Assembly (NCBI GenBank): GCA_013820875.1 | Contig: JACDHS010000019.1 | Span: 1-48,400, forward strand | Direction of reading: 5' to 3' | Source of the DNA: Verrucomicrobiota bacterium | Lineage (GTDB): Bacteria; Verrucomicrobiota; Verrucomicrobiia; Limisphaerales; JACDHS01 | DNA: 48,400 bases | Shown here: in pieces, positions 1 through 39,573 of the stretch | How positions within the stretch are numbered: the first letter of the stretch is position 1 | How the letters are laid out: the number at the start of each line of letters is the position of its first letter | Notes under the pieces: model-generated | Seen by the model: the letters and a program-made list of their open reading frames with translations, nothing else | Told to the model about the DNA's origin: nothing | The model's database searches: none | Made by a program: the position numbers and the translations under genes

Positions 1-167
1 TGGTTCCAAAATTATGGGCGAAGGTTTTTAAGCTCCTTTTTTGGATGCAAAATTATTTTTGGAAGTTTTTAAGCTTCTTTTCTGGACGCAAAATTAATTT
101 TAGAAGTTTTTAAGGTCCATTTTTCGCCCCAAAATTAATTTTGGAACTTTTTAAGGAGCTTAAAAAC
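1..167. repeat. 41-bp tandem repeat, about four degenerate units
   Basis: An AT-rich unit repeats every 41 bp; the marker GTTTTTAAG recurs with its T-run starting at 25, 66, 107 and 148 (C replaces the first G in the last). The last unit holds a perfect 16-bp palindrome at 129-144. The block is closed by GGAGCTTAAAAAC (155-167), the reverse complement of GTTTTTAAGCTCC at 24-36. The period is not a multiple of three, so it is not coding. The array may extend left of the window. Confidence 0.8.
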
Positions 168-252: not shown

Positions 253-434
253 CTGCCATTTAGTTAAGGTGTTGTTGATCCGGGAATCGGAACTCGGGAC
301 TGGAAAGTCCCGGGAACTGGCACGCTGGAAAGCGTGCCACTACGTAGTGGCAGGTTTTCCAACCTGCCAGTTCGGGCCACTTTCCAGTGGCCAGTTCGCG
401 GTCCCGATTCCCTACCTTCTTGACTAAATGGCAG
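253..434. repeat. 182-bp nested inverted-repeat element with GGAA/TTCC tetraloop hairpins
   Basis: The ends are a perfect 12-bp inverted repeat (253-264 with 423-434). Inside lies a second perfect stem (282-290 with 404-412). Within that are four hairpins whose loop is always GGAA or TTCC while the stems differ: 295-312, 319-338, 349-368 and 375-392, plus a 14-bp palindrome at 337-350. GAACTGGC (314-321) also pairs with GCCAGTTC (366-373). The layout resembles a non-autonomous mobile element or REP cluster. No gene lies in it; the minus-strand open frame over it is a by-product of the repeats. Confidence 0.8.
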
Positions 435-738
435 TGGGCCGGTCGCCTGAGCTGGGGGATGGCGCACCTTTGGCTGTTCGGGCGAGCTCATTTTTAATCC
501 ATGCGATCTCACCCAAAACGGCACCTCTTTTTGACGGCTCAATAAAAAAATCTTTCCGGAATTTTTGTGAATTCATACGACGAAAACTGCTTCAGTAATT
601 GGGGTGCTGCTCTGCGTAACAGGTCAATTCCACTGAAAACAGCGAGGAACCCTGGAGCGGGTGAAAAATGGACGCGATGAAGGTCTTCCAAACTATTTTG
701 GAGTGCGGAACCTCCCATGGAAAGTGTCTGTAAAAATC
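435..738. other. Gene-free stretch after the repeat element
   Basis: No convincing coding sequence, RNA gene or repeat was seen between the palindromic element and the promoter-like site ahead of the secreted protein gene at 787. Confidence 0.5.
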
Positions 739-37335: not shown

Positions 37336-37899
37336 ATGCAAGGCGATCTTCGTTCAGATCAGGGGAGTTCTTCAGCCGACGCGCATCCGGCTGCTCCGCC
37401 ACCCATCATGGCTCAACCCTCCGAAGAGTTTCAGCCACTTGACCGGCGTGTGGTTCGACTATGGCGAATCACGAGAACGATCAGCTCCACCGTGCTCTTG
37501 ATAATCGCCTCCGTCATCCTGACGGGTGTGTCCGCTGGGTTTCCAGGGCTCGCTTTTTTGCTGCCGTATGCGATTGGCGCGCTGTTCGTCCTGCTCGTGT
37601 TCTCTGTGATCTGGTACCCGCCCCGCGCCTACCGTGCCTGGGGCTACAGGATTGATTCCAAAGTTATCGAAGCGCGCTATGGTGTCATTTTCCATTCAAC
37701 GCACTTGCTGCCGTTGAACCGGTTGCAACACGTGGACATTCACCGCGGACCACTCGATCGCGCACATGGACTGTCGTCGCTCCTGCTCCATACCGCGGGG
37801 TCACAGGCAGCAACACTCGTCATTCCCGGACTCGATCAAGGCGAAGCGAAACGGTTGCGAGATCACTTGGTTGAAATCGGAGGCGACGATGCCGTTTGA
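37336..37899 (+). CDS. YdbS-like PH domain membrane protein
   Basis: The product (about 187 residues from MQGDLRSDQG) has an N-terminal Pro-rich cytosolic stretch, two membrane helices (about 50-70 and 78-97) and a bPH_2 domain: WGYRIDSKVIEARYGVIF, HLLPLNRLQHVDIHRGPLDR, SLLLHTAGSQAATLVIPGL. It pairs with the following gene like B. subtilis ydbS-ydbT, implicated in resistance to some antimicrobials. Starts at 37264, 37336 and 37408 are all possible; no good SD separates them. Confidence 0.8.
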   Translation: MQGDLRSDQGSSSADAHPAAPPPIMAQPSEEFQPLDRRVVRLWRITRTISSTVLLIIASVILTGVSAGFPGLAFLLPYAIGALFVLLVFSVIWYPPRAYRAWGYRIDSKVIEARYGVIFHSTHLLPLNRLQHVDIHRGPLDRAHGLSSLLLHTAGSQAATLVIPGLDQGEAKRLRDHLVEIGGDDAV

Positions 37900-39463
37900 A
37901 CCGGAGCCGCCACGATTACCCCCATTGAATGCGCCCGACGTTCCACCTGTGATCGGCGCGGTGCCGCCTCCTCTGCCGCCCGACAGCGACGCCAAACGTC
38001 TGCACCCGATGACGCTGTTCTTTGCCGGTTGGGGCGTTGTCCGGGGATGGCTCATTCCGATTGTTATTTTTCTGTTCGTCGGCCGATACGAGTTGCTGAC
38101 ATTCCTCGCATTCATGGCGGGGCTCCAGATTGTATTTTCCGTAGTCCGTTACTTCACCTTTACCTACCGGATTGCGGGCGCCGAATTGATCACGCGCGAA
38201 GGACTCATACAAAGGCACGAACGAAACATTCCCCTGGATCGTGTGCAGGACATCAAAATCGAACAAGGCGTGCTCCATCGAATGTTGAAAATGGCAGTCG
38301 TCCAGGTCGAAACCGCCGGGGGGAAAGGCGCCGAGGCCACACTGTCCGTGTTGTCGCAACCCGACGCCGAGCAATTGCGCAGGCTGATCTTCGAAAGACG
38401 GGCCATAGTTCGCGGAAAAGGGGCGGAGACGACCGAGCCACAACCGGAGCAACCCGCCGAAATCATTCGCAAGCTCGAATTAAAAGACCTCGTCATGGCC
38501 GGACTCACCTCCAATCGTATGGCTTCAGTGATCGTGTTGTTGGGAGCGGTTTGGGCATTCGCGGATGATGTTCTTGGCGAAAAAGCCTACATCCGGATGC
38601 AACAGGCCATTGAACAGTGGTTCGCACAACTGGCGACCTACGATCTTCAAACCACGATCTTCTTGTTCATCTTTGGGGCGATTGGAATCATCCTGTTCAG
38701 CATGATCATCTCGGTCATTGGCTCAGTCGTTCTGTTCCATGGATTCACTCTCGTTCGACACGGCGAAGATTTGCAACGGAGTTATGGCTTGTTGACGCGA
38801 CGAACGGCAAGTCTGCCCAGGCGCAGAATTCAGGTGCTGCAAATCCAGGAAGGAATTTTGCGGAGATTGTTCGGGTTGGCCGCCGTTCGTGCCGATACCG
38901 CGGGGTCACCTGCCGGCGATGGACAACAGTCCGGCCACGACTCGCTCCTGCCGATCATCCCGAAAGACGAACTCGGCACCCTGATGCCGGTGTTCTTTCC
39001 GAACTTCGACAACGAACAACCCGACTGGCGGCGCGTCTCACGGGTCGCAATTCGTCGCGGCACGCTGAAAGGAAGCCTGCTGCTGCTGACGCTATCTGCA
39101 ATTCTCTCTTTCTTCTATGGGCAGGCTTCACTCTGGGCGCTGATTTTTCTGCCCGCCGTTTATTTGATCAACGTGCTGAACTACCGGCATCTTGGTTACT
39201 CATTGGGAGCCGAGTATTTCCAAACCCGGCGCGGTTGGCTGAAACGATCCACGCATGTCGTCCCGATCCGCAATATCCAATCAGTCGTCCTGCACCAGAA
39301 TCCTTTCGACCGCCGTCACCGCGTTGCGACCTTGATCGTGGACACCGCGGGCCAAACCTACACCGGCGGCGGCCCGCGCATCAGCAACGTTGCCATGAAA
39401 GACGCCGTCCACCTCGCCCGCCTCCTTTCACAACAAGCGTCACAAAGGCGTTTGCAGTGGTAA
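37889..39463 (+). CDS. YdbT-like protein with multiple PH domains
   Basis: From the ATG at 37889, preceded by GGAGG inside the ydbS-like gene, the product has about 524 residues and overlaps that gene by 11 bp. It has a Pro-rich N-terminus and three membrane-anchored bPH_2 units, marked by ERNIPLDRVQDIKIEQGVL, ASLPRRRIQVLQIQEGILRR and THVVPIRNIQSVVLHQNPFD, each followed by a variant of VRADTAGSPAG. Hydrophobic pairs precede each unit. Role inferred only from B. subtilis YdbS/YdbT. Confidence 0.85.
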   Translation: MPFEPEPPRLPPLNAPDVPPVIGAVPPPLPPDSDAKRLHPMTLFFAGWGVVRGWLIPIVIFLFVGRYELLTFLAFMAGLQIVFSVVRYFTFTYRIAGAELITREGLIQRHERNIPLDRVQDIKIEQGVLHRMLKMAVVQVETAGGKGAEATLSVLSQPDAEQLRRLIFERRAIVRGKGAETTEPQPEQPAEIIRKLELKDLVMAGLTSNRMASVIVLLGAVWAFADDVLGEKAYIRMQQAIEQWFAQLATYDLQTTIFLFIFGAIGIILFSMIISVIGSVVLFHGFTLVRHGEDLQRSYGLLTRRTASLPRRRIQVLQIQEGILRRLFGLAAVRADTAGSPAGDGQQSGHDSLLPIIPKDELGTLMPVFFPNFDNEQPDWRRVSRVAIRRGTLKGSLLLLTLSAILSFFYGQASLWALIFLPAVYLINVLNYRHLGYSLGAEYFQTRRGWLKRSTHVVPIRNIQSVVLHQNPFDRRHRVATLIVDTAGQTYTGGGPRISNVAMKDAVHLARLLSQQASQRRLQW

Positions 39464-39493
39464 CCCTAAAAGATTTTAACGCAACGGCGTAGT

Positions 39494-39537
39494 GGAGGCT
39501 TTCCAGCCTGCCAGTTACCCGGGACTTTCCAGTCCCG
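39494..39537. repeat. Two TTCC-tetraloop hairpins, same family as 253-434
   Basis: AGGCT-TTCC-AGCCT (39496-39509, extendable with mismatches) is followed by CGGGACT-TTCC-AGTCCCG (39520-39537). The second is the exact reverse complement of the hairpin at 295-312. They lie 30 bp after the ydbT-like stop. Confidence 0.75.
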
Positions 39538-39573
39538 AGTTTTTTGAGGATCAGCACTACTCTTAGTGCGTCA

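Follow-up and report, generated by a model that had tools for sequence, protein, structure and literature searches.

The stretch of Verrucomicrobiota DNA analysed here (48,400 nucleotides; the window) carries at 290-397 two abutting 54-nt units arranged head to head, which meet in a CTAC/GTAG junction at 340-347. In the 5′ to 3′ direction of its own strand, each unit consists of GTAG, hairpin 1, GTTC, hairpin 2 and a second GTTC; hairpin 1 has a 9 bp stem and hairpin 2 a stem of 7-8 bp, and on the strand that carries GTAG the loop of both is TTCC. Unit A (344-397, plus strand) comprises GTAG at 344-347, hairpin 1 at 348-369, GTTC at 370-373, hairpin 2 at 374-393 and GTTC at 394-397, whereas unit B occupies the minus strand (290-343), with GTAG at 343-340, hairpin 1 at 339-318, GTTC at 317-314, hairpin 2 at 313-294 and GTTC at 293-290. 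An earlier note on this DNA had described four hairpins with a common GGAA/TTCC loop and stems of 7-8 bp. All four are present, with GGAA on the plus strand at 294-313 and 318-339 and TTCC at 348-369 and 374-393, but GGAA is the complement of what the GTAG strand reads, and the stems range from 7 to 9 bp. Compared with dinucleotide shuffles, none of which was equally stable in 200, the strand 245-445 reaches a fold z of -9.5, and each 54-nt half forms its two hairpins when folded alone (z = -7.5 for unit A and -8.8 for unit B).

Further repeats enclose this core, as had been claimed. A nested inverted repeat spans 282-412 (GGGAATCGG at 282-290 and CCCGATTCCC at 403-412), and a perfect 12-bp terminal repeat stands outside it (CTGCCATTTAGT at 253-264 and ACTAAATGGCAG at 423-434). 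The latter belongs to the terminal inverted repeats (TIRs) of a MITE-like element, the left one at 251-268 on the plus strand (GGCTGCCATTTAGTTAAG; consensus CACTGCCATTTAGTTAAG) and the right one at 419-436 on the minus strand (CACTGCCATTTAGTCAAG). Just before the element, at window positions 1-155, an A+T-rich 41-bp sequence (GTTTTTAAG...TTTTTGG...CAAAATTA) is repeated in tandem about three and a half times.

A DNA search of the genome returned 39 matches. With a covariance model (R1) built from an alignment of eight units (A3), 44 matches were obtained at E ≤ 0.1, of which about 32 have E values under 1e-10; the possibility that the hairpins are confined to this site, which the earlier note had raised against its own reading, thereby falls away. 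The model recovers unit A with 79.2 bits (E 5.8e-25), unit B with 83.8 bits (E 1.3e-26), and a single unit of the same family elsewhere in the window (39489-39542, plus strand; 61.9 bits, E 1.4e-18; fold z -5.2), which starts 26 bp past the stop of an ORF at 37766-39463. Throughout the genome the units occur singly or as abutting head-to-head pairs (e.g. on C9, C20, C47, C142 and C229), and the pair on C9 adjoins sequence resembling the 403-434 side of the window element. Eighteen of 20 copies checked lay outside ORFs of at least 150 aa, compared with 47% of random positions, the gene calls being mechanical ORFs. The GTAG foot stands at a GC-rich palindrome; it is invariant in the eight rows of the model alignment and appears as GTAG, GTGG or GTAA in related loci. 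About 30-40 units is a modest number for a REP family, as such families usually exceed 100 copies per genome (PMC2817692). The end of C216 (L006, C216:13499-13594) is identical to window positions 350-445 over 96 bp, and further out it stays similar to the flank in the window but with several differences, the pattern of a duplicate that has diverged or of a strain variant.

Changes within the stems are compensated. Within the genome, 8 of the 17 pairs have changed on both sides and 97.8% of cells are paired, a result matched by none of 500 shuffles. When 72 distinct units, taken from related genomes as well as this one, were aligned, both-sided changes extended to 15 of the 17 pairs and the covariation score was 0.60, against 0.15 after shuffling and 0.04-0.06 with slid partners, although this alignment leans towards the structure because it was fitted to it. 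The same hairpins emerge from a separate scan that makes no use of the model. Compensatory changes, whose absence the earlier note would have taken as a refutation, thus occur both among the copies and between genomes and, judged from these comparisons, the hairpin structure is selected.

Seven Y1_Tnp matches were found in the genome. One is a gene for a protein of 212 aa on C239 (L064:1520-2158, minus strand), which is surrounded by four REP units, in both orientations and on both sides, so that the search for a Y1 transposase gene proposed in the earlier note had a positive outcome. In one of these units (L064:2219-2309) the first loop is enlarged by about 37 nt, and both stems are still paired. 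The protein passes the NCBIfam model of REP-associated tyrosine transposases (REP_Tyr_transpos, NF047646) with 101.9 bits at a cut-off of 80; assignment as an IS200/IS605 TnpA was rejected, NF033573 giving 24 bits, under its cut-off of 55. Its best solved relative by sequence is 4er8, a TnpA-REP bound to a REP hairpin, and 4er8 is likewise the top fold match of a 71%-identical relative modelled at a mean pLDDT of 84.9. The motifs NHVH, WQ and YTTMNP are present, and N125, H126, H128, W165, Q166 and Y186 (of the NH-x-H, WQ and Y...N motifs) are invariant among 24 relatives in an alignment that left out four stop-containing ones. A second RAYT-like gene, on C66 (L062), has inverted flanking two-hairpin units with a GTGG foot at 1313 and 1928; their loops are also equal, ACC in both hairpins.

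The association of repeat and transposase gene extends to other genomes. In related RAYT loci, mostly from Verrucomicrobiota MAGs and including Limisphaerales, 54 of 56 model matches lay within 350 nt of the RAYT gene, although this distance covers just 19% of the flanking sequence examined. Matches stood on both sides of the gene in 13 of 21 loci. The sole match that the script scored as 'inside' (L154) reflects a one-base overlap with the gene match. In a set of 38 genomes from the same order, the presence of close RAYTs and of at least four REPs coincided (Fisher p 2.9e-4), this being one of eight threshold combinations for which p ranged from 0.23 to 2.9e-4; the association was strong only for close RAYT relatives and absent among the 38 genomes at loose thresholds. 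Two genomes (G009 and G018) have many model matches and no RAYT match, in assemblies that are incomplete (57% and 89%).

The GTAG foot, the recurrence throughout the genome, the co-variation of the stems and the units that flank the RAYT gene all uphold the link to a REP-type transposase that the earlier note had offered as one of two explanations. We are highly confident in reading 290-397 from its sequence as a head-to-head REP dimer (REPIN/BIME), non-autonomous and most likely spread by the RAYT/TnpA-REP encoded on C239 of the same genome. In single-stranded DNA each GTAG-tagged unit would fold into two hairpins; the RAYT would then bind the constant loop and the GTAG foot, its tyrosine would cut nearby, and the repeat would be moved or copied, mobility itself being inferred. 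Binding and cutting by way of foot and loop are proposed here by analogy with biochemical work on TnpA-REP, which recognizes the single strand in its folded form and cleaves close by; it relies for this on the GTAG foot and, in certain systems, on the loop as well (PMC8266576). Since the loop is constant, the stem free to vary and the hairpin doubled, the protein probably reads loop and foot, which we predict to be the features recognized. This agrees with the intolerance to any change seen in vitro at certain positions in the loops of Stenotrophomonas and Marinomonas REPs (PMC8266576). A repeat family is here tied to its own transposase in a little-studied phylum.

The whole of 253-434 might instead be a single MITE belonging to a classical insertion sequence of the DDE type, with the hairpins as its interior. 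Terminal inverted repeats do stand on both sides, and the same ends recur at many other sites in the genome, paired copies on C47, C76 and C145 showing perfect 10-bp target duplications; on C47 and C9 a REP pair again lies between CACTGCCATTTAGTTAAG-type ends. Most REP copies, however, have no such ends nearby, single REP units exist outside TIR elements, and the same ends enclose unrelated interiors in many places, often near contig ends, many contigs stopping just past the TIR. The flanking of RAYT genes by REP units in this and other genomes also speaks against a single MITE, as does the window copy, which has a degenerate left end and in which no target duplication was found. We searched for a matching insertion sequence within the DDE_Tnp_1 family (PF01609); none of the three genes found has the TIR in the flanks examined. 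As an account of the whole element this explanation is very unlikely: it probably holds for the outer repeat and is contradicted for the hairpins. The REP dimer lies between MITE-like ends, so the outer, perfectly matched 12 bp have a different origin: they belong not to the REP but to a distinct MITE-like terminal repeat, other copies of which show the 10-bp target duplications. What had been proposed as a single element at 253-434 is therefore a nested composite. The TIR elements either often receive REP dimers or carry them; REP dimers lodged in longer palindromes have been described in Anabaena variabilis and Halothiobacillus (PMC3733652). On C160 (L211:140-200) and C48 (L220:550-620), MITE-like elements with this TIR contain GTGG-type hairpins of another family, paired head to head and with loops that read TGCC and TTGCCG or similar; no cognate RAYT was identified for them. 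On C157 (L218:60-420, i.e. C157:23360-23720) a tandem array with a unit of roughly 50 bp containing GTGGCCTTGAGACCGTCCAGACGGTTTTGAT adjoins a single TIR copy.

More improbable still is a role mainly at the RNA level, as terminator, mRNA stabilizer or protein-binding element, to which the transposase link would be incidental. The hairpins are stable and extragenic, and REPs in other bacteria do have RNA-level side effects (PMC3733652), but the units occur in both orientations and as exact head-to-head pairs, and they cluster at RAYT genes across genomes. Rfam returned only sub-threshold miRNA-precursor matches to the palindrome and no family at gathering score; the RNA-binding protein that the earlier note had named as the other candidate thus gains no positive evidence. 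An assembly artefact or chance palindrome, suggested by the nearness of the contig start (about 250 bp away) and by the ending of C216 within the identical 96-bp stretch, has virtually no claim left: the stability of the fold (z = -9.5) speaks against it, and many internal copies on other contigs, together with the same repeat class in independent genomes, rule it out.

The number of hairpins per REP is unusual. In the RAYT clade of the C239 protein, here and in related loci, the unit is two direct hairpins rather than the single hairpin of the usual REP. Scanning 72 RAYT loci revealed a foot-plus-hairpin near 47 of them and a second hairpin near 24, as opposed to 0.4 and 0 in base-shuffled flanks. 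Near distant RAYTs (Opitutaceae, Planctomycetota, Verrucomicrobiaceae) mostly a single hairpin is found, often with loop TCC or TCT; because the foot and the TCC-type loop recur in these single-hairpin REPs, whose RAYTs are related, we treat the two-hairpin unit as a REP variant. When the two-hairpin loci were marked by hand on a quickly built RAYT tree, L145 and L201 being borderline, the label required three changes compared with 15.4 in shuffles: among the Verrucomicrobiota transposases, those with two-hairpin REPs group together in one part of the tree. In two loci (L112 and L142) the second hairpin has its own GTAG, which suggests that the two-hairpin unit may have arisen by the joining of two direct REPs.

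The two hairpins of a unit also resemble each other. The pairs that close their loops are in agreement at 18 of 21 loci, where 6.0 would be expected by shuffling (0/100,000 as high), and at 13 of 16 versus 4.7 expected once duplicate loop combinations are removed (2/100,000); the rows, one unit per locus, were picked by hand, and kinship is only partly removed from these counts. That the loops match suggests one and the same protein as the reader of both hairpins, perhaps acting as a dimer. We give slightly less than even weight to the fuller proposition that this Verrucomicrobiota RAYT clade uses a two-site REP, in which two direct hairpins share one GTAG foot, loops and closing pairs change jointly between genomes and stems vary freely. 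If true, one transposase, perhaps a dimer, must read both hairpins, a form of substrate absent from the REP papers searched; that search covered the text of open-access papers, and its negative result is weak evidence. The two-hairpin unit makes monomer versus dimer recognition by RAYTs testable.

Among known systems, bacterial MITEs resemble the outer element in being short, without coding capacity and bounded by 18-bp terminal inverted repeats, and several copies of that element, though not the one in the window, show 10-bp target duplications; the interiors here vary widely among copies. As in IS200/IS605 elements, a hairpin and a 5′ tetranucleotide would be read by a Y1 HUH transposase (TnpA Y1), and IS200/IS605 fold matches follow directly after 4er8; the copies here differ in having spread without the gene. 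The closest likeness is to GTAG REPs and their RAYT/TnpA-REP proteins (REPtrons; REPIN/BIME), whose biology has been described elsewhere (PMC2817692, PMC8266576, PMC6006769). Shared features are a perfect hairpin with GTAG or GTGG as its 5′ foot, the extragenic copies, head-to-head dimers, inverted copies that flank the transposase gene, and a constant loop on a variable, paired stem (PMC2817692, PMC3733652, PMC6006769). Within the phylum, O. terrae is reported to be rich in GTAG repeats, some of them in head-to-head dimers only 1-2 bp apart (PMC3733652). Head-to-tail REP dimers are reported to be absent or rare (PMC3733652). Reported REP hairpins are short, long, long with a bulge, or provided with a double foot (PMC6006769); the units described here differ from these GTAG REP/RAYT systems in having two direct hairpins with equal loops.
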